Of a stretch of DNA of 47,736 nucleotides, positions 17,101 through 46,652 are shown in pieces (within the stretch, counting starts at the first letter, position 1; each line of letters begins with the position of its first letter). Source of the stretch: a virus; the IMG/VR virus record IMGVR_UViG_3300032309_001488, positions 1 to 47,736 of that record. One strand, 5' to 3'. A program made the position numbers and the translations under genes. The notes below the pieces were generated by a model. The model searched no databases. It saw only the letters and a list, made by a program, of their open reading frames with translations, and was not told where the DNA came from.

Positions 17101-17559
17101 ATGGCAAATGGTATAACTTATGGTATTTCTTTTCCTTTTGTAGATTCTTTTACGGGAAGATATTTAGATGTTACTAATTCAACTGAAGGTGAAATAAGGT
17201 CAAGCTTAGTTCATTTAATTTTAACAAGAAAGGGATCAAGATATTTTCTACCTGATTTTGGAACAAGACTTTATGAATTTATTTTTGAACCATTAGACGG
17301 ACCAACTTTTTCTGATATAGAAGCAGAGATCAAAAGTAGTGTTGGGACATACATGCCAAATTTACAAATCACTAACATATCTGTTGAGCCAGGTTCTGCT
17401 GGTTTAGAAGATAAAGGTTACACGGTAAATAAAAATGGAGAAAGAGAGTTTCGTGTTACAAACATTGGAACATTAGAACACACAGCAAAAATCAAAATAG
17501 ATTATAGAATAACAGATTCGGCTTTTGAATCGAGTGATTTTATTATTATCAATATTTAA
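17101..17559 (+). CDS. gp25: gp25-like baseplate wedge protein
   Basis: This 152-aa protein of the T4 gp25 / phage W family (T4 gp25 is 132 aa) joins the wedge to the sheath initiator region of contractile baseplates. Typical features are GEIRSSLVHLILTRKGSRYF near residues 30-50, PDFGTRLYEFIFEPLD at about 51-66, the following amphipathic helix (DIEAEIKSSV), and a C-terminal beta segment with KIKIDYRI. It is immediately followed by gp6, as in T4-like phages and contractile injection systems. Confidence 0.9.
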   Translation: MANGITYGISFPFVDSFTGRYLDVTNSTEGEIRSSLVHLILTRKGSRYFLPDFGTRLYEFIFEPLDGPTFSDIEAEIKSSVGTYMPNLQITNISVEPGSAGLEDKGYTVNKNGEREFRVTNIGTLEHTAKIKIDYRITDSAFESSDFIIINI

Positions 17560-17565
17560 TATTAT

Positions 17566-19407
17566 ATGGCAGAAAAAAAGATATCATATACAGTAAGGGA
17601 CTTTCAAGGAGTTAGAACCGAGTTAATTAATTTTACAAGAACTTATTATCCTGATTTAGTTCAAAACTTTAACGATGCCGGTATTTTCTCGGTAATGTTA
17701 GATATGAATGCTGCGGTAACAGATAATTTAAATTATCAAATTGATAGGAGTATTCAAGAAACCGTATTACAATTTGCACAACAAAAAAATTCAGTATATA
17801 ATATCGCTAGAACTTATGGTCTTAAAGTTCCAGGACAAAGACCATCAGTTGCATTAATTGACTTTTCAATTACGGTTCCTGCCTTTGGCGATAGAGAAGA
17901 TTTAAGATATTGTGGTATTCTACGAAGAGGATCACAAGTTAATGGTGGTGGACAACCATTTGAAACCGTTTATGATATTGATTTCGCATCACCAATAAAT
18001 GCCGAAGGATCACCAAACAGAGTTAAAATACCTAACTTCGATTCAAGTGGTAAATTATTGAATTATACAATCATTAAAAGAGAAGTTGTTGTTAATGGTA
18101 TAACAAAAGTATATAAAAGAGTTATTACACCAAATGATTCTAAACCATATTTAGAATTGTTTTTACCTGAAAAAAATGTTTTAGGAATTACAAGTGTCTT
18201 ATTAAAACCTGGAACACAATATTCTACAATACCTAATCCACAAGACTTTTTAATATTAGGTCAAGAAAGATGGTTTGAAGTTGATGCTTTGGTTCAAGAT
18301 AGAGTATTTGTTGAAGACCCAACTAAAACATCTGATCAACCAGGAATTAAGGTTGGAACATACATCACAACAACAAACAAGTTTATTTCTGAATATACAC
18401 CTGAAGGTTTCTGTAAAATGACTTTTGGTGGTGGAAATATATCCGCTGATGAACAATTAAGACAATTTGCGATTGATGGAAAAGGTTTTGATTTAAGTAG
18501 ATATACTAACAATTACGCGATGGGAGCTGCTCTTCCACCAAATACAACACTATTTGTTCAGTATAGAATTGGTGGTGGCTTATCAAGTAATTTGGGTATT
18601 AACACAATTAACCAAGTTGGAACTGTGTCATTTGCCGTTAATGGACCATCTGATAGTGTAAACCGAAGTGTAATCAATAGTTTACAATGTAATAACGTAA
18701 CTGCGGCAATTGGAGGGGCAAACCCACCAACAACCGAAGATGTTAGAAACATGGTTTCATTTAATTTCGCAGCACAAAAAAGAGCGGTAACTGTAAACGA
18801 TTACGATTCTATTATTAGAACAATGCCATCTCAGTTCGGAGCTCCTGCTAAAGTTGCAATTACAGAAGAAAATAATAAAATTAGAATTAAAATGTTGTCT
18901 TATGATACAACAGGAACATTAACAAATGTTGTGTCTAATACTTTAAAACAAAATGTTGCAAATTATCTATCTAACTATAGAATGATAAATGATTATATAT
19001 CAATCGAATCTGCAGATGTTATTGACTTGGCAGTTACGGTAGATGTCGTATTAGATAATAGTCAAAATCAAGGTGCAATAATTTCTAAAACAATTCAAAT
19101 AGTTGGAGACTTCTTTAATCCTTTAGTTAGACAATTAGGACAAAATGTTAATATCTCTGAACTTAGAAGATTAATACAGGCTGAAAATGGTATTGTTAGT
19201 ATATCTGACATTTCATTCTTCAATCAAGTCGGAGGTCAATATTCATCAGCACAAACATCAATGCCATATTCAGATCCTGCAACAAGACAAATCCAACCAA
19301 CGGCAGATACTTTGTTTGCAACACCAACACAAATATACCAAGTAAGGTATCCAAACAAAGATATTAATATTAGAGTTTTGAACTTAAAATCAGTCAATTT
19401 CTCTTAG
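17566..19407 (+). CDS. gp6: gp6-like baseplate wedge protein (baseplate J family)
   Basis: The 613-aa product is close to T4 gp6 (660 aa), which forms the inner ring of the baseplate. The N terminus has the typical start YTVRDFQGVRTELINFTRTYYPD, followed by DMNAAVTDNLNYQIDRSIQE. This is the helical part that places each wedge. The middle is beta-rich. AAQKRAVTVNDYDSIIRTMPSQFG (about residues 400-430) is the conserved J-like segment, and the C terminus contains a ferredoxin-like region (SADVIDLAVTVDVVLD). It follows gp25 by six bases. Confidence 0.9.
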   Translation: MAEKKISYTVRDFQGVRTELINFTRTYYPDLVQNFNDAGIFSVMLDMNAAVTDNLNYQIDRSIQETVLQFAQQKNSVYNIARTYGLKVPGQRPSVALIDFSITVPAFGDREDLRYCGILRRGSQVNGGGQPFETVYDIDFASPINAEGSPNRVKIPNFDSSGKLLNYTIIKREVVVNGITKVYKRVITPNDSKPYLELFLPEKNVLGITSVLLKPGTQYSTIPNPQDFLILGQERWFEVDALVQDRVFVEDPTKTSDQPGIKVGTYITTTNKFISEYTPEGFCKMTFGGGNISADEQLRQFAIDGKGFDLSRYTNNYAMGAALPPNTTLFVQYRIGGGLSSNLGINTINQVGTVSFAVNGPSDSVNRSVINSLQCNNVTAAIGGANPPTTEDVRNMVSFNFAAQKRAVTVNDYDSIIRTMPSQFGAPAKVAITEENNKIRIKMLSYDTTGTLTNVVSNTLKQNVANYLSNYRMINDYISIESADVIDLAVTVDVVLDNSQNQGAIISKTIQIVGDFFNPLVRQLGQNVNISELRRLIQAENGIVSISDISFFNQVGGQYSSAQTSMPYSDPATRQIQPTADTLFATPTQIYQVRYPNKDINIRVLNLKSVNFS

Positions 19408-19483: not shown

Positions 19484-22400
19484 ATGCCAAAATCGTATAG
19501 AATAAGAACCGAAGTCGGTCAAGACAAATATATAAATGTAAATTTAGAACAAGATTGGGAATCTTTAGAGATACTATCTTTAAAGATATTAGCCAACGAT
19601 CTTTATACTAGATTTTGCGCTGACTACGGTGTCGTAGTTGGTCGAGTTTTTGTAAACAATGGGTTTGGTCTTCCAAATGCCAAAGTTTCCGTTTTCATTC
19701 CATTGGAAGAAGCGGATGAATTAAATCCTGTAATTTCTGAACTATATCCGTATAAGAGTATAACGGACACTAACGAAGAAGGTTATAGATATAACTTATT
19801 ACCTAAATTACCATCTTATAACGGACATACATCGACAGGTTCATTTCCGAATAAAGGAGATGTTCTAATGGATAATTCTTATATTGAGGTATACGATAAG
19901 TATTATCGTTTTACTGTAACAACAAATGAAAGTGGTGACTTTATGATCTTTGGTGTTCCTGTTGGAACTCAAACAATCGTAATGGATGTTGACTTATCTG
20001 ATATTGGTTGTTTTTCTTTGGCACCACAAGATTTAATACAACAAGGTTTAGCGACTGAAACTCAAGTTAATGGGGCTAGATTTAAATCATCCACAAATCT
20101 TAGAGAATTACCACAAATTAAAAATTTGGTATTTGATGTTGATGTTCGTCCTTTTTGGGGTGATGCTGAGTTATGTCAAGTTGGTATCACAAGAGTTGAT
20201 TTTGATTTAACTAAACAAGCAAATATCAACATACAACCAACCGCCATATTCATGGGATCAATCATATCAACAACAGATGATGATGCGTTAAAGGTAAAAT
20301 GTAAACCAAAAAATAATACAGGAAATCTTTGTGAATTAGTTGCAGGACCTGGTGAAATACAAGCAATTAGACAAACCATATTTTCTGATGTTAACGGATT
20401 ACCAATTTTAGAAAGATATGAAATAGAAGAAGGTGGAAAAGTTATTGATGACAATGGGACTTATTTATTAAATGTCCCTATGAATTTGGATTATGTGTTC
20501 ACTAATGAATTTGGTCAACAAGTTATATCAAACGACCCAACAAAAGGTATACCAACAAAAGGAAAATACAGATTCAAGTTTAAATGGCAAAACGAACAAG
20601 GACTTCAAGGTAGTTTTCTTAGAGCAGACTTTTTAGTTCCGAATGTTAAAGAATACGGGTGGATCAATTCAAATACAGATCCTTTCGATCCGAATAATGC
20701 GGGAACATATAACTATACATTGGCCGCGGGACAGATATCAGGATTTACAACCGTTATTCCACAGAATGTTGGTTTTGCGAGTCCACAAACAACAAACGTA
20801 GAATCATATCAAATATTGATTAACGGTCAAGTTTATTTAGGAAGTATTGAATCAATACAACTTAACTCAGGAGATCAGTTTCAGATTATCGCAACACCAG
20901 TTAATCCATCATCACCTCAAACAATTTCATTTACATCATACCCTCAAGATTTGTTTGACGTATATAAATCATATGCTTTTAGCACCGATTGGGACGATTA
21001 TGCTAACGCCCAAGATGCAATAGATTGTGAAGATACTTTTTATGAATTTAAATACAATAAAGTTTATACAACGGCAATGTTTTTGGATCGATATAAAAAT
21101 GGAATCGGTAGAGCAAAACATTTGGGTATTAAAGAAATTGATAATAGAAGTTGTAAATCAACAGTTAATACTTTTCCTGTAAACGATATAATTAGAAATT
21201 TCGATTTTATATTTTTTGTTTTTAATATTTTAATAAACATTTTAACTTTTCCAATATTAACACTTTTATTTGTTGCACATTTAATTGCACTTTTATGGCC
21301 TGTTCTTAAATATGTTTTATTATTTTTAGGACCACTTATTGTATATTTTGGTGTTTCTGCAGGTATTGATTTAGGATATTATATATTAAGTTTAACTGAC
21401 GTAACTGCGGTTGGTCCTGTAATATCACCGGCAACTATTTTACAGATCATTGCTCAAGGGGCTAAAGTATTATTTTTAACCGCCGCAGGGTTGGCCTTTA
21501 CATTTTTTTATACAAAGTTTTTTATTAATAACACTGCAAATGGTAAAATAGATAACTTCCCAAGAATAGGTCTTCCTATGATTGCATATCCTGATTGCAC
21601 TAGTTGTGATTGTGAGTGTGGAAATGCAAGTTTAGATGATGATTTTGATGCTAACTCAATACAACAAGAAATACAAGACGCTCAAAATGGTTTGAGTGGT
21701 GGAGGCACAGGTAGTTATGATTTAGAAACAACACAACCAAGTTCATTGATTGCACCATTAAACACACCTCAATCGTATAATGTATCACACCCCAATTTAG
21801 AATTGAATTCAAATGGGGACGAACCGTTTGATTGTGGAGTTGGGTTTGGAGGTAAGTTTGAGTCATTTACAACATTAATTGGAAACGACGATGTTTCTAG
21901 TGACGTTGTTGTAAGAGCTGTTTTAGATTTCCAAAGGATGTTTTCGGGTTATGACGTATTAAGTTCAACAGACCCAAACAAATATATACAAAACGAAGCG
22001 TATTTGTTAAAAGCACCACAACCATTTTTATTTTCAGCTAAGAAAAATGGAAACAATCCACCTGATAGTAGGTATTTTGCATTCCCAACTTCAGTAACTT
22101 TGGCTCAAAAATTAAATGAGTTCAATACGAGAGATAAATATTTCTATAATAACACATCTAATACTCCGAACACTGGTATCAATAAAATTAAAACTTGGGT
22201 TAACCCCACTATTAATAATTTATCAACCGCATATTTGGATCAAGTTGTTGTTGTTTTAATGAATCCAGGAACTACAGCAACATTAGGTGTTGGTAATTTA
22301 ATTACTTTTCAAGACCCAACGTTTACAGGAACCTCATCGACTAATAGATTGGTAAACTTAACAGGGGCAACAACAAACCAATTTAGTAATAATGCGATTA

Positions 22401-25129
22401 CAGGGACAACAATAACAGGAACTACATCTGTTACTGTGACATATGCAAACCCATCCAACCCAAGTGGTGGAATACCAACAACCTTTGATATAATTTCACC
22501 ACAAGTAAGTCAAATTGCCGACCCAACGAACCCATCAGTCGAACAATCATATTTGCAATATGCAACCGACATAGAATATTTCCAACTTATAACTGGTATG
22601 ACATATTCTGATTTTAACTCAATGGATGTTAATACGAGTGGTTATTTCCCTGAAACATTTTTACGACACAACATAGATTATATTAGACCTAATTGTAATT
22701 TAAATGGGTTTATACAAGAAACTTATAGTGACGTAATAACCTTTATGAGTGATTACCAAAATTATGAAGTTTGTATTTTTGTTAGAGGTGTTGATCCGTT
22801 TACTGCTAAACAAACTATAAAATATGACTTATCCCATATTTTTGGATACACAACATTAAACCAACAAGTAACAGTAGAAGGTGAGTATTATTTGAATATC
22901 CCAATTCAACCTAATCAAATTAAACCACAATCACATAACACTGTAAACAATAGTAATGCGATTTTATATCACCCGTCTTATACATTTACGATTGATCCAT
23001 CAAACTACACTGGTTTTACATCTGAATTACCATATTATTACTTAAGCACTGATGATACATTGTCGTCACTATATACTCCCGTTCCATCTTTGTGGAGTAG
23101 TAATTCAAATAGCACCATAAGTTTAAACCAAACACTTATTAATGGGTCTAATATGCCGTTATTACCACCATTTTCTTTCTATACTGTTGGTGGAACATAT
23201 TTTAGATGGAATAGTGGAACAAACTATACCTTCCCAACTAACATCCCACCAACAGAATTGTTTACTCAAGGAAATAGTTCAGGTTGTAATCAAGATTGTC
23301 AAAAACAACAATACTATAATCACCCATCTGCAGGAGGTAGTGGTAATGGACCTTATTTTACATCTCAAGCCGCTTTAACGGCAACATACTCACCAGCATA
23401 TTATAGATATACTTTACCGGGGGTTAACTTCTCGAACTCAAATAATATTGTAATGAGAAGTGATAGACTACCAACATCAACAGGAACACAAAATGGTGTT
23501 GGACCTCAAACAGGTTTTGGTCTTCATCAAAACGATAACTTCACTATTTATTCACCTGGTGGTAATAATGCACCACCACAGATTTTTGTTGGAGGTGATT
23601 TGGCAAATGGTGAGTCTTTTGATTTAGATCCGAATACAGACGCATTAACAAGCACTTTAACTTGTGAGGGTATGGTTCCGTTGGCGTGTTATTCTGGTTC
23701 AGGACAAAACGTCGGAGTATTACCATCAACTTTATGTTCAGTTCCGTCAAACAGAATGATTAATGGTTGTTATTGTTTACTTAACAAAAAATATGTTAAA
23801 GAATATGGTGATGACGTTAGATTATTTTTAGAATGGAAAGTTCGTTTTACAATGAACTTTGCTGCGTGTAGAGGAGTATTCGCCCAAGTGTTCCAAAACA
23901 ATTGGGTTAATGGTGTTTTATATATGTTTAACTTTAATAAACAAACCACCTTCAATATTCAGGCACAACCAAATTATGATTATTGTCAAGATGTGATTTT
24001 ATATAATGACATATCAAATACTTTCTATTATAGATCTTCGCCATGGAATGAAAACACACAGCAATTCGTTGGTAAAAATTCACCTGCTGCTAATCCAAAT
24101 TTACCTCAAAGTTTTTTAGATTTTCCTGGCCTTGGATATAATCAAAAACAAATTCAGTTCCCAACAACCGTTGTGGATTTAGGACCAAGAGATTATTTTA
24201 TTAATGAAATCTGTTGTTCGGGTATTGATGGTTTTGGTTCATACTATGCCGACCAATTAAAATCTACATCATACCAAGATAATTCAGACATAATTCAATT
24301 AGGATTTTTATCTCGAATACTAAATGAAGGTGTAAGACAAAGAATTTTACCAATATCGAATGGTGGTAATAATAGTGAAGGAAAAGGGATCATTCAATTT
24401 TTTAATAGCACACGAGGTGGTTATAGAATTGATGGAGACTGGTCACAAATGTTATCAATCAATTCAGAGTGGAAAGTTTCACCTTTCATAACTGAAAACA
24501 TACCAGCACCTAACTACATTTATTTTGGTGATAATCAAAACGGAACTACAGGACAGATAAACTCTAATGATATAAAACCAATAATGGGGTTATTTTTCTC
24601 ATCAAACACTAATGAAGAAAGATATAGAAAAATAATGTCACCAGGAATTGAAACATATAGTTTTAATCCTCTTATTGAAGAAAAATTTGGATATTCTAAA
24701 TCTCAAGAAGTTCCAAATTATAGGTGGACTATATCTTTACCACAAAATACTGCTGGAACACCTAACATATTTGGATCAGAGGATAACAATTGGTATACAG
24801 ATACTTTAATTTTATCAGGACAAACAGGGTTTGGGTTTACCAAAAAAAGATATCAAGACTTAGATTTTACATCACCACAAGAAAAATACATAACACCAAC
24901 AACTAAATTTGGTTTTATATCAAACTTTTTAAATAACAACCCTAACCCAAGTTCTACGGGGGTTATACAAGGACAACCCGTTCCTGTTTCAGCACAAGGA
25001 ATCCCAACTAATCAAAATGCGCTTCAATCAGTCGTTGTCGGTGCACCATACCACTTCTACTTTGGTTTAAATAATGGAAAAACGGCAATCAATCGTTTTT
25101 ATAAACTTTACGTAGCAACAGGAGAATAA
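19484..25129 (+). CDS. 1881-aa tail/baseplate protein with an internal membrane domain
   Basis: Residues 45-180 contain a beta-sandwich like the carboxypeptidase regulatory fold (GRVFVNNGFGLPNAKVSVF, with GDFMIFGVPVGTQTIVMDV as its closing strands). Further beta-rich regions follow. Residues about 570-685 are a long hydrophobic block that I read as roughly four membrane-spanning helices, including LTFPILTLLFVAHLIALLW and VLLFLGPLIVYFGVSAGI, with a last helix near VLFLTAAGLAFTFFY. Directly after it is a Cys cluster, CTSCDCECG (about 706-714). The C-terminal 1,100 residues are Asn/Thr/Pro/Gly-rich and resemble a virion surface protein. It lies between gp6-like and further wedge genes and overlaps the next gene's ATG by one base. 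I do not recognise a family. A role in fibre attachment or membrane contact is inferred. Confidence 0.65.
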   Translation: MPKSYRIRTEVGQDKYINVNLEQDWESLEILSLKILANDLYTRFCADYGVVVGRVFVNNGFGLPNAKVSVFIPLEEADELNPVISELYPYKSITDTNEEGYRYNLLPKLPSYNGHTSTGSFPNKGDVLMDNSYIEVYDKYYRFTVTTNESGDFMIFGVPVGTQTIVMDVDLSDIGCFSLAPQDLIQQGLATETQVNGARFKSSTNLRELPQIKNLVFDVDVRPFWGDAELCQVGITRVDFDLTKQANINIQPTAIFMGSIISTTDDDALKVKCKPKNNTGNLCELVAGPGEIQAIRQTIFSDVNGLPILERYEIEEGGKVIDDNGTYLLNVPMNLDYVFTNEFGQQVISNDPTKGIPTKGKYRFKFKWQNEQGLQGSFLRADFLVPNVKEYGWINSNTDPFDPNNAGTYNYTLAAGQISGFTTVIPQNVGFASPQTTNVESYQILINGQVYLGSIESIQLNSGDQFQIIATPVNPSSPQTISFTSYPQDLFDVYKSYAFSTDWDDYANAQDAIDCEDTFYEFKYNKVYTTAMFLDRYKNGIGRAKHLGIKEIDNRSCKSTVNTFPVNDIIRNFDFIFFVFNILINILTFPILTLLFVAHLIALLWPVLKYVLLFLGPLIVYFGVSAGIDLGYYILSLTDVTAVGPVISPATILQIIAQGAKVLFLTAAGLAFTFFYTKFFINNTANGKIDNFPRIGLPMIAYPDCTSCDCECGNASLDDDFDANSIQQEIQDAQNGLSGGGTGSYDLETTQPSSLIAPLNTPQSYNVSHPNLELNSNGDEPFDCGVGFGGKFESFTTLIGNDDVSSDVVVRAVLDFQRMFSGYDVLSSTDPNKYIQNEAYLLKAPQPFLFSAKKNGNNPPDSRYFAFPTSVTLAQKLNEFNTRDKYFYNNTSNTPNTGINKIKTWVNPTINNLSTAYLDQVVVVLMNPGTTATLGVGNLITFQDPTFTGTSSTNRLVNLTGATTNQFSNNAITGTTITGTTSVTVTYANPSNPSGGIPTTFDIISPQVSQIADPTNPSVEQSYLQYATDIEYFQLITGMTYSDFNSMDVNTSGYFPETFLRHNIDYIRPNCNLNGFIQETYSDVITFMSDYQNYEVCIFVRGVDPFTAKQTIKYDLSHIFGYTTLNQQVTVEGEYYLNIPIQPNQIKPQSHNTVNNSNAILYHPSYTFTIDPSNYTGFTSELPYYYLSTDDTLSSLYTPVPSLWSSNSNSTISLNQTLINGSNMPLLPPFSFYTVGGTYFRWNSGTNYTFPTNIPPTELFTQGNSSGCNQDCQKQQYYNHPSAGGSGNGPYFTSQAALTATYSPAYYRYTLPGVNFSNSNNIVMRSDRLPTSTGTQNGVGPQTGFGLHQNDNFTIYSPGGNNAPPQIFVGGDLANGESFDLDPNTDALTSTLTCEGMVPLACYSGSGQNVGVLPSTLCSVPSNRMINGCYCLLNKKYVKEYGDDVRLFLEWKVRFTMNFAACRGVFAQVFQNNWVNGVLYMFNFNKQTTFNIQAQPNYDYCQDVILYNDISNTFYYRSSPWNENTQQFVGKNSPAANPNLPQSFLDFPGLGYNQKQIQFPTTVVDLGPRDYFINEICCSGIDGFGSYYADQLKSTSYQDNSDIIQLGFLSRILNEGVRQRILPISNGGNNSEGKGIIQFFNSTRGGYRIDGDWSQMLSINSEWKVSPFITENIPAPNYIYFGDNQNGTTGQINSNDIKPIMGLFFSSNTNEERYRKIMSPGIETYSFNPLIEEKFGYSKSQEVPNYRWTISLPQNTAGTPNIFGSEDNNWYTDTLILSGQTGFGFTKKRYQDLDFTSPQEKYITPTTKFGFISNFLNNNPNPSSTGVIQGQPVPVSAQGIPTNQNALQSVVVGAPYHFYFGLNNGKTAINRFYKLYVATGE

Positions 25130-26928
25130 TGACAGTAGATCCAACAACAAATATTATATTATCGACTGAAAGGTTTAAAGGAGCACCAAGAACCGATCAG
25201 TTTATTAATGTTCCTTTTGCACAGAGTAATAAAGAAATCATTGAGTTTGATAGAAGTGTTGATTTAAACTTGGCCACGGTATTTGATGAGGAAAGACAAT
25301 TATCAACCACTTTTAGACCCGTAACAAAGTTTACCATTTTATTTGAAAATGCTTATACCGGATCAACTAACTACACACCATTCAGAGACAATTTATATTA
25401 TACAAACGCAGTAAACAACGCAGTGGCGTATTACTATCAAGGAATTCCTTCTGTTCCACCTAATGCAACAGACCAATCTGTTTTATGGGATGGTTTTCCA
25501 CAATATCCTGAATTCGACTTTATTAGAACCGACTATGATGTTTCAGGATATACTTTTGGAAATGGAAGACATTTGGATTTTTATAAAGTTAGTGCGTCCA
25601 CATATAACTGGTCACATTACATAAGTTATGCTTATACCAACGATTATAATAAACAACTTTACGCTATTGAACCACAAACAACTCTTTCTTGGAGTTGGAT
25701 TGCTTCAGATGGTATACCTTTTTATATAAAAAATGGAACTGATAACTTGGTTAGAGATATTCAGTTTAAATGTCCTGTCCCACACGGATTATCAGTAGGT
25801 GAATTTGTTCAATTATCGATAAACTATAACGGTAATTCATTTTTTCAAGTCACAAGTTTGGGAGACCCTGCATCAGGATCAGACATTTATATCTTCAACC
25901 TTAGAAACGTTGGATATACAGGAACAACTTTCTTTACAAACACTCAAGGAACTTTTAAACGAATAATAAATTTGGCCAATTCTGCTGACACCATATCAAA
26001 ATATTATGTTAGAAAACACAAAATAATTACAAATTATGATTGTTCTGTTTTAACAAACGCAGGGTTTGAACAAAATGTTTATTTCGACAAAAAGAAATGT
26101 GAAGTAAAAGTATTAACTCAAAATCAAACACAAAGAACATCAGTTAAAGAAGGATCCAGATCTTATAATCTATCATTCAATTGTGATGTTGATATAAACG
26201 GATTAAAAGATAATCAGAATAGACCTGTGTCTAATTTATATTTTACAACAATTTGGAGAGGTTATTTTGGGTGGACTCAAAGACTAAAACAAGGGTGGTA
26301 TTTTAACACATATTTAGATAACTTCCAACCACAAACTTGGTGGGATCAAAACAATCCTGATTCAAATACCCTGATTAATCAAAATCAATACACATCATTA
26401 GTGGGTCAAGGTCCATTCTTTTATAATGACTTTTTAACTACAGGAGATACTATTGATGGAGATTTTTGTGAATGGAATGATTTCGAACAATTTGAAAGAG
26501 TTATTTCAGAATACCAACATAAAATAACTTATAATGCAAATTGGTTCAAATTATCAGAACCACCACAAAGTGTTATTAATCAATTTGGATATTTTTATTC
26601 GCCACATTCACAAATACAAATTAGAGCTTTCTCTGATTATATTGAAGAAGGAAGTTCTGAAAATGTGGTTGGTATTCCTGATTACGCTTATTACTCAACA
26701 ACAAATGCGTTGTTTAGATGGAGGGATCTTTATCCGTATGGATTTATTGATACCGATGGGGTTGGAGTTGATTATCCGTTTTTAAACAACTCACATTATC
26801 CATATAAAAATACAATATTTAGAATTACACCCGAAAATTATAATATACCTAGTGACTACGCGACAATAGGTCAAGTTCCTGCGAACATAACAACAATTGC
26901 AGATCCGATTGCCGATGAATGCGAATAG
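25129..26928 (+). CDS. Baseplate-associated structural protein, 599 aa
   Basis: The ATG at 25129 overlaps the preceding TAA by one base, so translation is probably coupled. The product is aromatic- and Asn-rich, mostly beta, with scattered Trp and no membrane segment. Readable stretches include FKGAPRTDQFINVPFA at the N terminus, CPVPHGLSVGEFVQLS in the middle and NLYFTTIWRGYFGWTQRLKQ at about residues 373-392. By position it could be the equivalent of T4 gp8 (a wedge protein that follows gp7), but I see no diagnostic motif. A virion structural role is well supported by context. Confidence 0.6.
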   Translation: MTVDPTTNIILSTERFKGAPRTDQFINVPFAQSNKEIIEFDRSVDLNLATVFDEERQLSTTFRPVTKFTILFENAYTGSTNYTPFRDNLYYTNAVNNAVAYYYQGIPSVPPNATDQSVLWDGFPQYPEFDFIRTDYDVSGYTFGNGRHLDFYKVSASTYNWSHYISYAYTNDYNKQLYAIEPQTTLSWSWIASDGIPFYIKNGTDNLVRDIQFKCPVPHGLSVGEFVQLSINYNGNSFFQVTSLGDPASGSDIYIFNLRNVGYTGTTFFTNTQGTFKRIINLANSADTISKYYVRKHKIITNYDCSVLTNAGFEQNVYFDKKKCEVKVLTQNQTQRTSVKEGSRSYNLSFNCDVDINGLKDNQNRPVSNLYFTTIWRGYFGWTQRLKQGWYFNTYLDNFQPQTWWDQNNPDSNTLINQNQYTSLVGQGPFFYNDFLTTGDTIDGDFCEWNDFEQFERVISEYQHKITYNANWFKLSEPPQSVINQFGYFYSPHSQIQIRAFSDYIEEGSSENVVGIPDYAYYSTTNALFRWRDLYPYGFIDTDGVGVDYPFLNNSHYPYKNTIFRITPENYNIPSDYATIGQVPANITTIADPIADECE

Positions 26929-28908: not shown

Positions 28909-29694
28909 ATGAAAAGAGTTGAATTTACACCCTCAGAAATAAAAAAAATTGAGTATGATTATTTAGTGAATGGTTTGTCTTGCAAAACTATTAGTGAAAA
29001 ATACGGGGTAAGTATAACACCAATTAAAAGAGTATTGAGAAAAAATGGAAAATTAAGAAATGGAAATAGCGATGGTAAAAAGAAAAATTTAACAGAAAAT
29101 CAATATGAACTTATAAAAAAATTATACTTGAACGAATTCAAGAATATTGAATCTATATCACAAGAACTAAATATAAATAAACATTTAGTTGCTAAAATAA
29201 TACACTATTCTGATTATAGAAGAACAAGAGGTGAAGCAATGTCAATATATAGAAAAGGAAAAAAATTGAGTGAATCAATTAAAAACAACATGAAAATTGC
29301 TCAACAAAAATTTGCTAAAAGTGGTAATAGAAAACAAACGGGAGGGATATGTAAAAATTATATTGTCGACGGTTTAGAATGTCAGGGAACTTATGAAAAA
29401 TTTTATATTGAAAAATTGATAAATGATGGGGAGTTAAAACCAAAAAAAAGTTTGCCGATTGAAACACCATTTGGTGTCTACTATCCTGACTTTTCTTTTG
29501 AAGACAGATTAATTGAAATTAAATGTGATTACACTTACGATATATTAATAGGTAATAAAGAATCTAGATTTACAAAACAAAAAAATTTGAAACAATATAA
29601 TAAAATTAAATGGGTCAACTCAAACATTAAAAAAGTGGATATTTTGATTGTGGACAAAAGAAATAATAAAGTAGAAAAAAAAGAAATTATATGA
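28909..29694 (+). CDS. HTH-NUMOD-PD-(D/E)XK homing endonuclease-like protein
   Basis: This 261-aa product is unlike its structural neighbours: strongly basic, Lys-rich and encoded by very A-rich DNA. Residues 7-50 and 60-100 each look like a helix-turn-helix (LSCKTISEKYGVSITPIKRVL and a second copy with QELNINKHLVAKI). Residues about 115-140 (GKKLSESIKNNMKIAQQKF) resemble a NUMOD3-type DNA-binding segment. The C-terminal half has the order Glu163 (TYEKFYIEKL), Asp194 (YYPDFSF) and Glu203-x-Lys205 (LIEIKC), the PD-(D/E)XK nuclease layout of EDxHD/Vsr-like homing enzymes. Its stop overlaps the next ATG (ATGA). I infer a free-standing selfish endonuclease inserted between two baseplate genes. 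Confidence 0.8.
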   Translation: MKRVEFTPSEIKKIEYDYLVNGLSCKTISEKYGVSITPIKRVLRKNGKLRNGNSDGKKKNLTENQYELIKKLYLNEFKNIESISQELNINKHLVAKIIHYSDYRRTRGEAMSIYRKGKKLSESIKNNMKIAQQKFAKSGNRKQTGGICKNYIVDGLECQGTYEKFYIEKLINDGELKPKKSLPIETPFGVYYPDFSFEDRLIEIKCDYTYDILIGNKESRFTKQKNLKQYNKIKWVNSNIKKVDILIVDKRNNKVEKKEII

Positions 29695-30596: not shown

Positions 30597-33583
30597 TGGC
30601 AACAAATAAATTTACTTGTCCACCTCAAAGTAGTGCCGCTAATGAGTTCTCAAACAATTTAGTCGGAGTTCAACTTGTTACTGGTGGTGGTTTAACGCAA
30701 GCAAATTTTAATTTCACCACAGGTATATCTGAAAAACAAAACAGGACTTTTAACATAGGGACTTTTTCAGACCCAATTAACTTAGAGTCTATTAATATAG
30801 AAAGTCAGGCTGAGGCTAATATTATATTAGCAAACAACTACAGGGTTTATCCAAATTATGACTTATCGCAAGTTACAAATTTTACCCAATACGGGTCGTT
30901 AGTTAAAAGACTTTCAACTTCAATTACAAAAATTATTAACTACTTCCCTGCGGGGTTAGAAGTTAATTCAACAAACCCATCATTTATAACTCAAGAAACC
31001 GCATTTAACATTATATTTGATTCGGTTGAAAATGACACAACATTTGAGGTTTATTTGTCATCAATTCAAAACCCATTTGAAATTGATTATTCAGTTAATA
31101 GTGATATTAATATGCGTTTTAACGAGATGGATGTATCACCATTAAGAAACATGACAAGAGAGTTCAAAAAGTATGTTTTGTATGTAAATGGTAATCAATA
31201 TCCTGTGAATTATTTATATCCTACAGATAGTTCATCGACGACACTGAAACTTATTGTTGATGGTGATCCGTTTAGTGGAAACTCAATATCATATGATTAC
31301 TTAGTAATTAGACCAAGTGACTATGAAACAAATAGAGTGTTTAATTTAAATTTTGATCCTGTTGAAAACTTTTTATTAAACAGACAAATAACACCTGCTT
31401 ACACCGCACAATTCGTTGTTCCAAGAGAACAAGAAGATGGGACGGTTTCGGTTACAAAAGAAACCGCGACTTGGCCAAGAGCGGGATTATGGAATATTGA
31501 TATAACATCAGTTTCGTTTGATAATTATTTAACAAAAATTAATGACTTTGCAATTAATTTGGATCAATATCAAACAAACATATTATCAAGGTTTTTAACA
31601 ACAGGAGCATTAAAAGAATTCGATACACCAGATCAAAGGTTTGAAAAATTACTTCAAATTTATGGAAGAAGTTTTGATGAAACAAAAACATTTATAAGCG
31701 CTTTAGGTAATATTAATAGTGTTCATTACACGGTTAAAAATGATATACCTTCACAATTACTTAAAAATTTAGCACAGACATTAGGTTGGGTTACAAACTT
31801 TTCACCAATATCACAAGAAGAGTTATTACAGGCAGTATTTACAACTCAACCAAATACTTTTCCCGGTCTTCAAATTGGACCAACACCAGAAGAAGTTAAT
31901 TATCAATTTTATAGAAACATAATTGTAAATTCGGCATACCTTTTCAAATCGAAAGGGACAAGAAAATCTATTGAGGCTCTTTTAAGAATGATTGGAGCTC
32001 CTGACGCTTTAATTGATTTCCAAGAATATGTTTATGTTGCTGATCAACGAATCAATATGAGTGAGTTTAATCAACAATACGCTCAAATTAGTTTAGGAAC
32101 TTTAACAACTCAAATACCGGTTTTAGACACCGCAGACGTATTTTCAATTCAAGGAATACAATATACAGGTTTTACAACTACATCAACAAACACAAATGTG
32201 TTGACAGTAAGAAATGATTATCCTGTTGATGAATTTGGTTGTCCAAAAATGCCAACGGCAACCGAAACATATTTCTTTCAAATTGGTGGAGGTTGGTTTG
32301 AATCAACACCACAACATAGAATGCCCGAGTTTGCAATTCCAACAAATCAGGTATTCACAGGAAATAACCCAAATTATCAAACACAAATACTTCCATTTAA
32401 TTATGGAGAAGAGTATCTACAAAGATATAGACAATTTCCATATATGGATATGGGATATGTGTTACGAAGAGTTTCGGATAATAAGAAAAGTTGGGTCGAT
32501 ACAAACCCAACATTAAGAACAAGTTTCGAAGGAAACTTCAACGCATACTATGAAGTTGGTGAAGAATGTTTAGTGTTGAACGTTAAAAACGTTGACATAA
32601 TGTTAAACCCTGGTCAAGGATTATCATATGACGTTTGGTATATGTCTAATCAGTATAATTTCCCAATACCAGAACAAGGTTTGTTTTATACACCACCATC
32701 ACCTTGTAGTATTCCTAACCCATATCCTAAATTAGGTGGGGTCGATTGGACAACAATAGTTCCAAAACCAAAACAAAAAACTTTCTTTGAGTTTGCGCAG
32801 ACCTTTTGGAGAAATATGATTAACACCCGAAATCGTCAATTTATTACTGATGGAAAAACGGGAGGTTACCCAACATTACAATCAATTTATTGGAGATATT
32901 TAGAATCACAAAAATTGGCAGGAGTTCCAAACAATAATTATACATACCAAACAATGATTGATTTTGTTAATGGTATGGGTGACTATTGGATTCAGTTTAT
33001 AGAACAAATGGTTCCAGCAACCACAATTTGGAACACAGGGGTTAGATTAGAAAATTCAATATTTCATAGACAAAAGTTTGTATGGAGAAGACAAGAAGGT
33101 TGTAAAATACTTCCTGTTCCTTGTAAACCATGTAGTCTTACGACTCAACTATACGTTTACGATTGTCCTGTCCAAAGTGTAACATGTGGGTTATATCCTT
33201 GGACAACAGATCCAAACACAACATCATTTGGTGTGGTATTGAATCAAACACTTCAAGACTATTTTACATCACAAGGTATTAACCCTGGTCAATGTCAATT
33301 AAATTCAACAGTTTCAAATTGGTTTGTTGATATAAGAATAAACGGATTACTTGTAACACAATATGGTTTCTTTACAGGAATCGGAACTTCAGGTTATCCA
33401 TCAAGTTCACAATGGTTACAAGGATTACAAGACGCTTTAGATGGTTTACTAACAAGTGGTTATAGTTATAATATTGATGAAGATACAAATGAATTAGTGG
33501 TCTTTAATAATAATTGTTTACCAAATTTTGATGATTTTGAATTGAATGTTGGAATAAACTTTGAAACTTACTGTAACGCATAA
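30596..33583 (+). CDS. gp7 / P2 gpI-like baseplate wedge protein, 995 aa
   Basis: Around residues 440-480 the sequence RNIIVNSAYLFKSKGTRKSI and ALLRMIGAPDALIDF matches the core of the P2 gpI / Tail_P2_I family ('ayl.kskGTrksieallrl.g'). That family links the J/gp6 ring to fibres, and in contractile injection systems it is a protein of about this size (Afp12-like). The N-terminal 330 residues are beta-rich with several fibre-like domains. The C terminus is Cys-rich (CKILPVPCKPC, YDCPVQSVTC) and ends in a domain also present at the end of the next gene's product. It overlaps both neighbours by one base. The wedge role is inferred from the gpI-like core and from downstream position after gp25 and gp6. 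Confidence 0.7.
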   Translation: MATNKFTCPPQSSAANEFSNNLVGVQLVTGGGLTQANFNFTTGISEKQNRTFNIGTFSDPINLESINIESQAEANIILANNYRVYPNYDLSQVTNFTQYGSLVKRLSTSITKIINYFPAGLEVNSTNPSFITQETAFNIIFDSVENDTTFEVYLSSIQNPFEIDYSVNSDINMRFNEMDVSPLRNMTREFKKYVLYVNGNQYPVNYLYPTDSSSTTLKLIVDGDPFSGNSISYDYLVIRPSDYETNRVFNLNFDPVENFLLNRQITPAYTAQFVVPREQEDGTVSVTKETATWPRAGLWNIDITSVSFDNYLTKINDFAINLDQYQTNILSRFLTTGALKEFDTPDQRFEKLLQIYGRSFDETKTFISALGNINSVHYTVKNDIPSQLLKNLAQTLGWVTNFSPISQEELLQAVFTTQPNTFPGLQIGPTPEEVNYQFYRNIIVNSAYLFKSKGTRKSIEALLRMIGAPDALIDFQEYVYVADQRINMSEFNQQYAQISLGTLTTQIPVLDTADVFSIQGIQYTGFTTTSTNTNVLTVRNDYPVDEFGCPKMPTATETYFFQIGGGWFESTPQHRMPEFAIPTNQVFTGNNPNYQTQILPFNYGEEYLQRYRQFPYMDMGYVLRRVSDNKKSWVDTNPTLRTSFEGNFNAYYEVGEECLVLNVKNVDIMLNPGQGLSYDVWYMSNQYNFPIPEQGLFYTPPSPCSIPNPYPKLGGVDWTTIVPKPKQKTFFEFAQTFWRNMINTRNRQFITDGKTGGYPTLQSIYWRYLESQKLAGVPNNNYTYQTMIDFVNGMGDYWIQFIEQMVPATTIWNTGVRLENSIFHRQKFVWRRQEGCKILPVPCKPCSLTTQLYVYDCPVQSVTCGLYPWTTDPNTTSFGVVLNQTLQDYFTSQGINPGQCQLNSTVSNWFVDIRINGLLVTQYGFFTGIGTSGYPSSSQWLQGLQDALDGLLTSGYSYNIDEDTNELVVFNNNCLPNFDDFELNVGINFETYCNA

Positions 33584-35769
33584 TGAGTATAACAATTTAT
33601 AATTATAGTGTAACTGGTGATTGTAGTAATACGGGATCAGGGGCATTTTCATTTGACATTACAGGAACAACACCCCCTTTTGCAGTAACATGTATTAGTT
33701 CAGGTTGTAGTTTACCAAGTTCAGCAACCACAACTTCTTATGGTGTTTCAGGAATTACCGCTGATACATATTTTTTACAAGTTGTTGATGGATCGTCAAA
33801 TAATTACGTTCAGGCCGTTTATGTGTCTTCAGGAACAACCGCAACGATTGATTCTGAAAATACAACGTGCGGATTAAATAATGGATCTATTACTGGATAT
33901 ACTTCAGGTGTTTATAATATTGCAACTTTTAGTTTATATGATGGACTTAATAATTTAGTCACTTCATCACAAGTTGCAACTAACTATTATAATTTCACAT
34001 CTCTTTCAGCAGGAACATATTATATAGTTGCTGATGATGGTGGTGGTTGCACAGGAATCACGGCTTCAGTAATTGTTACACCATCAACAGGTTTTACTTT
34101 TGGTGGTTATGTTGTTGACGACGCAAGTTGTAACGGAGTTGGGAGTGGAAAAATATTTCTTACAGGTTTAACATTACCTTCATCGGCATATACAATAAAT
34201 TGGTCACCAAATGTTAATGGACAAACAGGAACAACCGTTACGGGTTTAACGGGGGGAACTTATATAGTTACAGTAACAGATCCTAGCAATTGTTCTAATA
34301 CACAATCGTTTAATGTTCAAGCCGTAGATCCTTTAGGTTCAGGTGGGTTTATTGTTATTTCACAACCAACTTGTTTTGCCAATGACGGTGAAGTTGAATT
34401 TATTGTAACAGGAGGAACAGCACCTTATTTCTTTAGTGGTTCGTCAGGTCAAGTTGATGTTACGTTTGCATCATCAGTGACATTTACTGGTCTATCATCA
34501 GGTAATTATTCATTTTTAGTTACAGATGCTGGGCTATGCACCACCTATGGTTCAGTGTCAATGTTAACACCGAATTCATTCACTACGGTTGCAGTTAACA
34601 CTACACCATCTTTTTGTTCTCAAAACTCAGGATCTGTTCAGGTTATAGTTGATAATGGGTTGAGCACAGAACCAAGTTTATTAATTTCAATATCAGGAAC
34701 AAGTGGAACACAACAAGTTGGAAGTTTAGGAAACCCAACTCAAACATTCAACGGACTTCCAAATGGAACGTATTTAATTACCGTTCAATCAACAAGCTGC
34801 ACTTACACGGCAACAACTAATATAACTTCTGTTAATTTATTTACGGTTACCGCAACAACAACAGGAACAACTTGTGGTGGTAATAATGGTATTTTAAATG
34901 TTGCAGTTTCAACGGGAGGAACATTACCATACATATTCACTCTTACGGGACCAACATATAGTCCTGTGACCACAACAACTTTCTTATCTACATTTACAAA
35001 TCTTAAATATGGTAATTATACCTTAACAGTTCAAGATTCAGGATCACCAAGTTGTATTCAAACATATAATGTTTATATAGACAATAGTCAGAATGTATTT
35101 TTTAATTTAATACCATCACAACCAATTAACGGAAATGATGGCGCAATTACCGCATACATTTTATCGGGAGTTCCTACCTTTGATTTAACGTGGAGTAGTA
35201 ATGTTAATGGTCAAACAGGATCCACTGTAACAGGACTAACGGCAGGGACGTATACTTTGACAGTTGTTGATAGTGAAGATTGTTCTTTAACAAAATCAAT
35301 CACATTAAAAGGAACTAAAAAATATAGTGATTACAGATACTACAATATTTGTGATAATACTTTTTCGGATACAGGAACGGTAACCAAAAGAAGTATGAGA
35401 GCAATGTATTTGGAAGGTTTTTCTGATCTTACAAGTGGAGATACAAACTGTATTATAAATGACGCAACATTTTCTATATATGCTCAAGTTGGATCACAAT
35501 CGGCTCAAACACAATTCTATACTTCAAGTGGATCAACCGATTACCCAACAGATGTTTTGTGGTCTCAAACGATTGTTGAAACCTTAGATTCGTTTTTAGG
35601 TATTTCAGGAACCACAGTTGACATAGTTTCAAATAGAATAACAATAACTACAACATGTGAAGACATACCAAAAGGGTGTGAAATAGTCCCTTTAAATCCA
35701 TTACAAGATAATGAGATTATTGTTAAGTTGATTATTGATTATGATATATCTTGTGTGAGTTGTAGTTAA
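33583..35769 (+). CDS. SprB-repeat tail fibre/adhesin protein, 728 aa
   Basis: The product is built from about seven tandem beta repeats of 75-95 residues, each following the SprB repeat pattern: a Cys near the start (CFANDGEVEF, CGGNNGILNV), a GG-x-x-PY turn, a Trp/aromatic strand, and a closing (L)xxGxYxxxVxDxxxC strand (LTGGTYIVTVTDPSNC, LTAGTYTLTVVDSEDC). SprB repeats are known from the mobile gliding adhesin of flavobacteria. The last about 130 residues form a different domain (QFYTSSGSTDYPTDVLW) that resembles the C terminus of the preceding gpI-like protein. No secretion signal is present, as expected for a virion protein. I infer a baseplate-attached fibre that binds the host surface. 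It is coupled to the gene before and followed after three bases by a small Cys protein. Confidence 0.75.
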   Translation: MSITIYNYSVTGDCSNTGSGAFSFDITGTTPPFAVTCISSGCSLPSSATTTSYGVSGITADTYFLQVVDGSSNNYVQAVYVSSGTTATIDSENTTCGLNNGSITGYTSGVYNIATFSLYDGLNNLVTSSQVATNYYNFTSLSAGTYYIVADDGGGCTGITASVIVTPSTGFTFGGYVVDDASCNGVGSGKIFLTGLTLPSSAYTINWSPNVNGQTGTTVTGLTGGTYIVTVTDPSNCSNTQSFNVQAVDPLGSGGFIVISQPTCFANDGEVEFIVTGGTAPYFFSGSSGQVDVTFASSVTFTGLSSGNYSFLVTDAGLCTTYGSVSMLTPNSFTTVAVNTTPSFCSQNSGSVQVIVDNGLSTEPSLLISISGTSGTQQVGSLGNPTQTFNGLPNGTYLITVQSTSCTYTATTNITSVNLFTVTATTTGTTCGGNNGILNVAVSTGGTLPYIFTLTGPTYSPVTTTTFLSTFTNLKYGNYTLTVQDSGSPSCIQTYNVYIDNSQNVFFNLIPSQPINGNDGAITAYILSGVPTFDLTWSSNVNGQTGSTVTGLTAGTYTLTVVDSEDCSLTKSITLKGTKKYSDYRYYNICDNTFSDTGTVTKRSMRAMYLEGFSDLTSGDTNCIINDATFSIYAQVGSQSAQTQFYTSSGSTDYPTDVLWSQTIVETLDSFLGISGTTVDIVSNRITITTTCEDIPKGCEIVPLNPLQDNEIIVKLIIDYDISCVSCS

Positions 35770-36031: not shown

Positions 36032-37012
36032 ATGGAAAAAATTCTATTTGTCACCGCACAACCTGACGTGCCATATTTTATTTGGCAAATAAAGTTATAT
36101 GTTCACAATTTCATAGAAAAAGGAATCAACCCCAACCAAATACACGTTATTTTTAGTTTATTGAACAAAAATAAACAACCATCAGAAGAATCTTTACGGT
36201 TAAAAGATCTTGGAATTAACGTTCATCACTTTGTTGACGAGAGAGTTAAAAAACATTACATACCCTCAATAAAACCATTTTTAATTTCAAAGTGGATTCA
36301 AAAAAATCCCAAACATGGTGAGTTATTTTTTCTTCACGATTCAGATATTATTTTTAACGAACTACCGAGTTTTGATCGGTTGTTGAATGATGAGGTTTGT
36401 TATATGTCAGATACGATTGGTTATATTGGATATGACTATATTATGGATTGTTGTAAAAGATATGAAAATCAACACCCGACTTCTGAGAAAGGACAACTCA
36501 TTTCTGAAATGACAAATGTGATTGGAGTTGATGTTGACACAATTAAAGAAAATCAAGAAAATTCAGGAGGAGGACAATACCTTTTTAAAAACACGAATTG
36601 TGAACTGTGGGATAAAATGTATAAAGACTCAATAAAATTATACGATCAGATGTTAGATTATCAAAAACGTTTTCCAATCAATCCAGGTCAAATACAATTT
36701 TGGACCGCAGAAATGTGGGCGGTGTTATGGAATTTATGGTTATACAAATACAAAACAAAAATAATTTCAGATCTTGATTTTTCATGGGCTACTGACACCA
36801 TCGACATTTATAATTCAAAAAACATATTACACATGGCAGGTGTCACAGATGATCTAAAAACTACAAAATTCTATAAAGGTGATTATATTAATATTGACCC
36901 CATTTTAAAACTAAAAGAGGATAAAAACTATTTTGATTACATTGATAAAACTAGTTCGACAATTAAATACATCGAAAACATGAAATCATATATAAAAAAA
37001 TACGAAAATTGA
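36032..37012 (+). CDS. GT-A-fold glycosyltransferase-like protein, 326 aa
   Basis: The N terminus is a Rossmann-like strand (KILFVTAQPDVPYFIWQI), followed by HVIFSLL and VHHFVDE. The segment ELFFLHDSDIIF carries a D-x-D motif (D103, D105), the metal and nucleotide-sugar site of GT-A enzymes. SGGGQYLFKN and QIQFWTAEMWAVLWNLWLY are later conserved-looking segments. The pattern reminds me of peptidyl-serine galactosyltransferase and hydroxyproline arabinosyltransferase-type enzymes, but only loosely. It lies inside the fibre operon, just before two Thr/Pro-rich adhesins, so I infer modification of fibre proteins; a host-glycan or DNA target cannot be excluded. The start lies within a TTTATTTATGG sequence, making a very short leader possible. 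Confidence 0.7.
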   Translation: MEKILFVTAQPDVPYFIWQIKLYVHNFIEKGINPNQIHVIFSLLNKNKQPSEESLRLKDLGINVHHFVDERVKKHYIPSIKPFLISKWIQKNPKHGELFFLHDSDIIFNELPSFDRLLNDEVCYMSDTIGYIGYDYIMDCCKRYENQHPTSEKGQLISEMTNVIGVDVDTIKENQENSGGGQYLFKNTNCELWDKMYKDSIKLYDQMLDYQKRFPINPGQIQFWTAEMWAVLWNLWLYKYKTKIISDLDFSWATDTIDIYNSKNILHMAGVTDDLKTTKFYKGDYINIDPILKLKEDKNYFDYIDKTSSTIKYIENMKSYIKKYEN

Positions 37013-37028: not shown

Positions 37029-39101
37029 ATGATTGAAAACTGTTATATACTATATTCTTGTGATGGAGGTTACCAACCGATCATTTCTAATTACAGTGGA
37101 TTAAGTGCTTATTCTGAAAGTTACGTATCCATTAACATTATTGATTTGGGTGAAACTCCCGATACTTGTTTTTATGTTTTGAGTTTAGGTGAAATGGAAT
37201 GTGATATAACCTATGATATAAATATAAACACAGGAACAACATGTTCTTGTCAATGTTATTGTTACTTTATAAGAAGTTTAGAAACAAATGTTGATGTGAC
37301 TTATGTGGATTGTAATGATCTTATTGTTGTTGAAACATTACAAGAAGGACAAACATATAATATTTGTAGTAAAGTATTTCCTCAATTTGATGGGGAGTCT
37401 CAAATACCAATTAAAATAACGGATATTTGTCAAAACAACCAATGCCCACCAACAATACCAACGGTAAAACCACCTAACGAATGTGATGTTATTACAATAT
37501 TTCCGATGGACGTTGAGTGTATTGTTCAAAACCCATCCAACGATAGATCTTTTGATGGTGCCGCAACATTAGCAATTACAGGAGGAACACCACCTTATAC
37601 TATATTTTGGGAGATTGGAAGTTTTGCACCAGCTCTTAATAATTTAGGTGTTGGTGAGTATTCGGCAACTGTGACTGATTACTATGGTGATTTTACTGCG
37701 AACACCACTTGTGTTTTAACGGCAGAAACATTAACCATATCTGGTATGTGTTTTGTTATTACGGGAATTACAGGTGAAGTTTTAACTTATATTTCGGCCG
37801 AAAGTCTTGGACTTAAAAACGGAAAACCATATTACCAAATACAATATTTGGGTGAAACGTATGGTTATGTATTTTGGAATACAGAATTAGAAACTTGGTA
37901 TTTTTGTCAAACATTAGATTGTCAAAATATAAGTCCATATAATACTTATACAGGAACAACATATTATCCTTCAGGAACTACAGGTGATTGGGTGGTTGAA
38001 TCCGATAGTCAATATCAAATAATTGAATCTTATGTTGGTCCATGTCAAATACCAGCAATTGTTAGAGGGGACACCAATCTTTGTGTTACATTAATTATAA
38101 ACACAGGAAATTCAGACTCACCAACGGACACTTTAAATATTGAATTAGATCCAAGTAACGAAATTAATGGACAACCAAGTTGGTCATCATCAACGGGACA
38201 ATATGTAATTTATTGGAATACAGGATCAACACCTAATCAATGGGTTATGACGGGCTATACGAATCCATATCTTACATTAACAAACAACGATCCGTCAGAC
38301 CCGCCAGTTAGTAATTGGGTTATTAATGGTGAAACTGAAATTATAGAAATGTTTGTTTTAACGGGTGATTGCTCCACAGGATACACAATAAATGTTGTTG
38401 CAGCGGTTAACGAAGCGTTATGTGAAGGATCGGGAAGTATTACAATAACTGCCAGTGGTGGTATTGCACCATATTTATATTCGGTTGATGGTATAAATTA
38501 TCAGGCATCTCCGATATTCAACGGACTAACACCAGGGTCTTACATAGTTTATGCGAAAGATTCATTAAATAATATTGGATTGTATTCACCTGTAGTGATA
38601 AATAATATACCACCTGTATCATATTCGGTTGTATTAAATGTGAACTATAGCACGGGATTATTTACAATAACAGCACCTACTTTACCGGCAGGAGTGACGA
38701 TAGATCTTAATTTGGTAATGACATCAACATTTAGTTATTACCCAACCACACTTTCACCACAACCAACTTATAATAATTTTACAACGATAGTTGGAACAGG
38801 ACTTATGACTTTGACAAATACTATGTTAAATATAACTCCATTGACTGGTCCTTGTGTTAGAACAGGTTCTATTGGTGTTGCTCAAACAACAAATACTTAT
38901 ACAAATACAATCACGTTATCAAGTAACCAAGTTGTTAGTGGAACGACAACAAATAGTATAATTAATGACCCAACTGGAAAATGTGAAAATGCTATTGGTT
39001 CATATAATTTAACCATGACGAACCCATCAATCAATAATTGTAAGTGTTGTTCGGTATTTCTTCTTAACCCAAGATTAAACCCGGCACCTCCTATTACATA
39101 A
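37029..39101 (+). CDS. Cys-rich multidomain tail adhesin, 690 aa
   Basis: The N-terminal 150 residues are Cys-rich (CSCQCYCYF) and end in a Pro-rich linker (CPPTIPTVKPP). Two SprB-like repeats can be read: about residues 175-225 (GAATLAITGGTPPYTIFW with LGVGEYSATVTD) and about 470-520 (GSITITASGGIAPYLYS with LTPGSYIVYAKDS). Between them, about residues 255-440, are two copies of a Trp/Tyr domain (GKPYYQIQYLGETYGYVFW and GQPSWSSSTGQYVIYWN, each followed by a W strand), and a related copy is in the minus-strand adhesin. The C-terminal end is a Thr/Asn-rich beta region closing with CKCC. I infer a surface-exposed fibre or receptor-binding protein. No enzyme motif is visible. Confidence 0.65.
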   Translation: MIENCYILYSCDGGYQPIISNYSGLSAYSESYVSINIIDLGETPDTCFYVLSLGEMECDITYDININTGTTCSCQCYCYFIRSLETNVDVTYVDCNDLIVVETLQEGQTYNICSKVFPQFDGESQIPIKITDICQNNQCPPTIPTVKPPNECDVITIFPMDVECIVQNPSNDRSFDGAATLAITGGTPPYTIFWEIGSFAPALNNLGVGEYSATVTDYYGDFTANTTCVLTAETLTISGMCFVITGITGEVLTYISAESLGLKNGKPYYQIQYLGETYGYVFWNTELETWYFCQTLDCQNISPYNTYTGTTYYPSGTTGDWVVESDSQYQIIESYVGPCQIPAIVRGDTNLCVTLIINTGNSDSPTDTLNIELDPSNEINGQPSWSSSTGQYVIYWNTGSTPNQWVMTGYTNPYLTLTNNDPSDPPVSNWVINGETEIIEMFVLTGDCSTGYTINVVAAVNEALCEGSGSITITASGGIAPYLYSVDGINYQASPIFNGLTPGSYIVYAKDSLNNIGLYSPVVINNIPPVSYSVVLNVNYSTGLFTITAPTLPAGVTIDLNLVMTSTFSYYPTTLSPQPTYNNFTTIVGTGLMTLTNTMLNITPLTGPCVRTGSIGVAQTTNTYTNTITLSSNQVVSGTTTNSIINDPTGKCENAIGSYNLTMTNPSINNCKCCSVFLLNPRLNPAPPIT

Positions 39102-42319: not shown

Positions 42320-42351
42320 AAATATCGTTTTTTTAGACGATATTTTTTTTT
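42320..42351 (+). terminator. Terminator between convergent genes
   Basis: AAATATCGT (42320-42328) pairs with ACGATATTT (42337-42345) as a 9-bp stem and is followed by a run of T, stopping the RuvC-like transcript. It lies at the meeting point with the minus-strand gene ending at 42350. On the minus strand the trailing sequence is less T-rich, so termination there is less sure. Confidence 0.75.
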
Positions 42352-46612: not shown

Positions 46613-46641
46613 CACACAAAGAATTTTTATAGATTTGTTAG

Positions 46642-46648
46642 TATTTAT
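46642..46648 (+). promoter_or_regulatory. Candidate late promoter box ahead of the GIY-YIG gene
   Basis: TTAGTATTTATATATATG places TATTTAT 4 nt before ATG 46653, the same spacing as at the other homing endonuclease gene (28898). Confidence 0.45.
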
Positions 46649-46652
46649 ATAT

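Follow-up and report, generated by a model that had tools for sequence, protein, structure and literature searches.

An 1881-aa protein (19484..25129, + strand) encoded in the baseplate gene cluster of a 47.7-kb virus fragment (hereafter the window, that is, the whole stretch of DNA analyzed) contains a hairpin of hydrophobic helices. The place of this hairpin in the protein, its conservation among homologs, a lipid-type substitution pattern, a conserved polar stripe and the joint loss of two pairs of cysteines all emerge from the computational analysis. As judged from gene order only, the protein appears to be a structural part of the baseplate wedge or of its periphery in a lineage of uncultured contractile-tailed phages. 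Our tentative preference, held with somewhat less than even confidence, is for a model in which a baseplate protein carries a disulfide-stapled hairpin that is masked in the virion and would enter the host membrane.

Genomic context and distribution of the family

The gene is preceded on the + strand by a gp25-like baseplate wedge/sheath-initiator gene (17101..17559, 152 aa), identified by matches to phrog_261 (E 1.1e-16) and phrog_43 (E 3.3e-11), and by an adjoining gp6-like baseplate wedge gene (17566..19407, 613 aa) that matches phrog_219 with an E value of 1.9e-20; the match of the latter to Pfam Baseplate_J (E 8e-4) is below the cut-off of that family. The initial annotation had described an 1881-aa tail protein encoded directly after gp6, and both the length and the position are borne out by the open reading frame check and the gp6-like profile match. 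A gp6-like gene is found upstream of the homologs of this protein in 206 of 230 cases, and some of the 24 exceptions might be artefacts of the removal of duplicate open reading frames. The next gene (25129..26928, + strand, 599 aa) is a conserved neighbor as well, with a homolog located directly downstream in 135 loci. We refer to the places of these two genes as the gp7 and gp8 positions, respectively, terms that denote gene order only.

The tail gene cluster is interrupted by a gene for an HNH-like/DNA-binding endonuclease (28909..29694), and a gene for an HNH/GIY-YIG-like endonuclease is located at 46635..47375. Among the tail genes, one encoding a 326-aa protein (36032..37012) strongly matches phrog_4417 (function unknown; E 3.6e-67). 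A 728-aa protein (33583..35769) shows similarity to the Y_Y_Y domain (E 2e-7) and, below the cut-off, to the SprB repeat (E 9e-6); these domains, which we take to be associated with Bacteroidota surface proteins, hint at the host or at an adhesin function.

Homologs of the 1881-aa protein, including full-length ones, are numerous in IMG/VR. Searches of this protein against Pfam (0 families), PHROGs, PDB sequences and the isolated phages of INPHARED (tblastn) returned nothing; thus, the family is widespread in uncultured phages and absent from the isolated phages searched, a set that may omit records lying particularly close to the window. The phages immuto, Mel-JY01 and the 484-kb LR756508 encode no homolog near gp6, although their gp6-like genes match. 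More distant relatives occur in contigs assigned by binning to Bacteroidota, Cytophagales, Mycoplasmatota and Wolfebacteria, bins that phage contigs can contaminate.

The most conserved part of the protein is the N-terminal module (residues 1-400; 19484..20683, + strand), which is 32-44% identical in distant relatives and is predicted to be beta-rich, with an AlphaFold pLDDT mostly above 85 from residue 50 onwards. A C-terminal cysteine-rich region (residues 1394-1578; 23663..24217, + strand) is also conserved and includes the motif WVNGVLY, common across the family, along with C1394, C1429, C1462, C1501 and C1577, which are invariant in 75 homologs. The first AlphaFold model, for which the alignment was shallow, had a low overall quality (pLDDT 59), and a fold search started with it was uninformative. 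The second model, which covers residues 1-735 and is based on 86 diverse rows, reaches a pLDDT of 82.5; its PDB fold matches are generic beta-sandwich proteins, e.g., pilins. Comparison of the N-terminal module with carboxypeptidase-regulatory and pilin-like beta-sandwich folds yields only weak matches to shaft pilins (best E 3e-4) and no Pfam match. The closest predicted viral structure is A0A8S5LA66 from Myoviridae sp. ctPuP5 (E 6e-45), with 44% of the positions being identical across 392 columns of the residue 1-735 model; this protein is unannotated, and the match spans about 390 of the 735 modelled residues.

The hydrophobic hairpin

The segment 21190..21625 corresponds approximately to residues 569-714 of the 1881-aa protein. 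Within it, the presence of the hydrophobic block reported in the initial annotation is confirmed at residues ~575-685, and the motif CTSCDCECG follows at residues 705-713. The protein contains 41 windows of 19 residues with a mean Kyte-Doolittle value of at least 1.6, compared to a maximum of 25 in 300 shuffled sequences. The best single window (2.49) falls within the range of the shuffles (maximum 3.15), so that the exceptional feature is the extent of the block. Among the 31 open reading frames of the window that were scanned, no other encodes a strongly TM-scoring protein; one marginal TM segment was detected in 37029..39101, with an apparent dG of 0.5 on a home-made centre-weighted version of the Hessa scale, which ranks segments rather than giving calibrated energies. 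Scans of the 1881-aa protein by hydrophobicity and by dG detect no second TM segment outside the block.

The same architecture recurs in related phages: 196 of the 214 uncultured-phage homologs with enough sequence possess a TM-type segment at the same place (apparent dG<0 on the same ranking scale), whereas in 16 the helices are weakly hydrophobic and in 2 such a segment is missing. The N-terminal module, used as a control for this count, is clean, and among 161 complete members only one contains a TM-like segment elsewhere. Codon comparisons within the block give dN/dS values of 0.06-0.32, which indicates that the block is under purifying selection. Chance hydrophobicity is ruled out by the extent of the block, its conservation in the family and purifying selection, and an artefact of gene fusion or frameshift by the occurrence of the same architecture in about 150 complete homologs. 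In six homologs (L329, L341, L345, L350, L295 and L359), amphipathic helices replace the TM-like hairpin and CxxC replaces CxxCxC; in another (L163), the block is entirely absent. These cases show that in some phages the protein manages without a fully TM-like hairpin.

Instead of the roughly four helices originally proposed, AlphaFold predicts two long ones that form a single hairpin, nearly the same in both models and with a moderate pLDDT of about 55-83 in the second. Helix 1 (residues 575-636; 21206..21391, + strand) is hydrophobic all round up to residue ~618 (21337), so the description of the block as near-continuously hydrophobic holds for residues ~575-618; the remainder, i.e., helix 1 past ~618 and helix 2 (residues 649-684; 21428..21535, + strand), is amphipathic, with helix 2 best described from its helical projection as amphipathic-hydrophobic. 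When helix 1 is divided in projection into six 60-degree faces, five prove to be hydrophobic and a single one polar. The positions that vary between phages make up a half of this helix with a mean Kyte-Doolittle value of 2.72 and only 1% charged, N or Q residues, and the conserved positions include N581, N585, H599, W605 and K609, of which N581, N585, H599 and K609 line up as a narrow polar stripe. The variable side of a soluble helix is usually the polar one, and lipid-facing helices typically show the reverse. The combination of a hydrophobic variable face with a conserved polar stripe in helix 1 thus appears to be of the lipid-facing rather than the soluble-bundle type. Accordingly, the membrane-type character suggested from the first reading is supported by conservation, the variable face and the stripe.

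Conserved cysteines and predicted disulfides

The 1881-aa protein contains 25 cysteines, most of which show no or almost no variation among 75 close homologs. The pattern of joint loss was analyzed in 128 non-redundant wider homologs. C45 (19616..19618) and C231 (20174..20176, both + strand) are both present in 122 of these and both lost in 6, with no discordant case. Similarly, C283 (20330..20332) and C557 (21152..21154, both + strand), the latter located 18 residues before the hairpin, are both present in 115 and both lost in 12, with one discordant case (Fisher p 5.5e-16). On a tree built without the cysteine columns, all independent supported pairs are concordant (3 of 3 for C283/C557 and 2 of 2 for C45/C231). 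The independent changes are few, 4 and 3, respectively, and the tree-based sign tests, although concordant, include too few events for significance. Given that the members of each pair are lost together, we infer that both pairs form disulfides and that the start of the hairpin is tied to the N-terminal module; because C557 lies just before the hairpin, a C283-C557 bond would fix this start to the module.

Directly after the hairpin comes the cluster C705xxC708xC710xC712 (21596..21619, + strand). In the 75 close homologs, C705, C708 and C710 are invariant and C712 is present in 96%; in the 128 wider homologs, the respective counts are 115 for C705, 123 for C708, 103 for C710 and 39 for C712. 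C710 is missing from many homologs in which the hairpin is merely amphipathic. A further cysteine, C515 (21026..21028, + strand), is loosely associated with C710: it is found in 79 of the 128, 76 of which also possess C710.

The initial annotation allowed for metal binding or disulfides in this cluster. C557, C705, C708 and C710 are widely conserved and were compared as the possible ligands of a single four-cysteine metal site, and the Fe-S/metal-binding tail proteins gpL of lambda and the RcGTA hub were considered for comparison. However, the loss of C557 tracks that of C283 more closely than that of C705 and does not track that of C710, so that, judged by co-loss, its partner is C283; the four-cysteine site is a possible, if less likely, candidate. 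Pairwise co-loss favors disulfides: the cluster is more likely to be part of a disulfide staple than to form a separate metal site, and the CxxCxC following helix 2 may pin the end of the hairpin. Other cysteine-rich proteins are encoded near the tail cluster, namely 37029..39101 (27 cysteines in 690 residues), 33583..35769 (20 in 728), 39129..41627 (19 in 832) and 42350..43840 on the - strand (27 in 496), which suggests a disulfide-rich virion like that of Agrobacterium phage Milano. That phage has cysteine-rich structural proteins with disulfides in the wedge (PMC10811340), whereas the disulfides proposed here are deduced from co-loss; we know of no membrane hairpin in its baseplate.

Possible roles of the hairpin

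Under the model that we tentatively favor, the putative C283-C557 disulfide would attach the beginning of the hairpin to the N-terminal module, and its end would be held by the CxxCxC cluster. In the resting virion, the hairpins would be masked inside the baseplate, with the polar stripe of each copy facing its neighbors or the hub. Upon contact or contraction, the wedges would open and the hairpins could swing outward from the stapled base into a membrane of the host envelope, where they would either anchor the baseplate or line the path taken by the tube, similarly to the L-loops of phi29 gp9. Three known systems provide precedents for parts of this scheme: the gp9 L-loops exit the phi29 tail knob as a barrel of hydrophobic helices that serves to penetrate the membrane (PMC6542822), Eag chaperones keep the TM helices of T6SS effectors masked up to the moment of firing (PMC12881460), and the baseplate wedge of phage Milano contains a disulfide network that must break before contraction (PMC10811340). 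Release of the hairpin on contraction into the host membrane is a fair and plausible hypothesis. Against the membrane model, a 62-residue helix exceeds a single span, helix 2 is amphipathic, some homologs have weakly hydrophobic helices or lack the segment, the cysteine co-loss involves few independent events, and no role in membrane insertion could be demonstrated for the hydrophobic regions of a tape measure protein (PMC5099701).

What the 1881-aa protein shares with phi29 gp9 is a hydrophobic segment embedded in a tail protein, whose structural role is in the present case suggested by gene order only. However, phi29 is short-tailed and gp9 forms the knob tube, whereas the 1881-aa protein is encoded in the baseplate cluster of a contractile phage; gp9 is absent among the 50 PDB fold matches listed for residues 1-735, and no hit of the PDB sequence search led to it. 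Tape measure proteins, e.g., that of TP901-1, are also tail proteins with predicted TM segments and a debated role in insertion (PMC5099701), but outside the hairpin the 1881-aa protein is rich in beta structure, its gene follows gp6, and nothing suggests that it is a tape measure.

The main alternative, which we regard as a real possibility although not a probable one, is that the hairpin is purely structural, permanently buried and never meets lipid, packing with helices of the gp6-like protein or with its own copies in an arrangement akin to a (gp6)2-gp7 core bundle or to a hub collar. The wedge proteins gp16 and gp17 of phage XM1 build the core bundle from helix-turn-helix hairpins (PMC10457771), and the amphipathic hairpins of some homologs are what would be expected of a graded protein-protein interface. 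A hairpin is indeed predicted here, but it exceeds the XM1 motifs, which comprise 48-68 residues (PMC10457771), in both length and hydrophobicity, and helix 1 is hydrophobic over about 300 degrees, with its variable positions being the hydrophobic ones, unlike in a normal bundle.

T4 gp7 bears on the same question. It is encoded directly after gp6, is large and contains a single TM-scoring segment (residues 886-904 of the protein encoded by L374:5061-8159), and its GenBank record carries a note on an integral membrane domain predicted at the C-terminus; the initial view that membrane helices are unexpected after gp6 was, therefore, too strong. Given that gp7 is part of solved baseplates, it suggests that a TM-scoring segment may reside in such a structure, in keeping with a buried hairpin. 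However, the gp7 segment is short, and T4-like phages conserve it at the level of individual residues, with VGFGFIGITLLTMFINSGL in some relatives, in contrast to the long, substitutable hydrophobic hairpin of the 1881-aa protein. Moreover, gp7 yields no fold or profile match: hhalign comparison with each half of the 1881-aa protein gives a probability of 0.1%, the PDB sequence search produced no match to gp7, and membership in the gp7 family by profile is rejected.

A less probable role, in our estimate an outside chance, is that of an assembly anchor, whereby the hairpin would hold the nascent protein or baseplate at the inner membrane of the infected cell and have no part in entry. A long hydrophobic segment in a protein made in the cytoplasm would be expected to draw membrane-targeting factors, and T4 heads assemble at the inner membrane (PMC3185693). 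However, the 1881-aa protein contains no other TM segments, the hairpins would have to be extracted from the membrane once the particles are finished, and a disulfide-stapled base would be needless. Finally, docking of a tail-assembly chaperone to a hydrophobic stretch that is covered in the virion, as put forward for hydrophobic regions in the tape measure protein of TP901-1 (PMC5099701) and in line with the masking of TM domains by T6SS Eag chaperones (PMC12881460), is the least credible reading, given that no chaperone gene was identified beside the 1881-aa open reading frame and that the length of the helices and the stapled base would be left unexplained.

Little is understood of the way in which contractile phages seal or anchor the envelope as the tube passes through it. 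An extension of the favored model that we consider doubtful is that disulfide-stapled, spring-loaded hairpins would insert on contraction, such that the baseplate itself would surround the tube as a membrane anchor or collar in a widespread group of uncultured contractile-tailed phages. To our knowledge, a baseplate that forms such a structure is known for no contractile tail, and we know of a tail membrane tool of this kind only in a short-tailed phage. The co-lost cysteines represent bonds that could be broken or checked by mass spectrometry, and the conserved, lipid-type hairpin in a baseplate-cluster protein is a specific, testable candidate for sealing or anchoring the envelope. If the hairpin inserts in the host membrane, contractile-tailed phages would gain a tool so far shown only in a short-tailed one.
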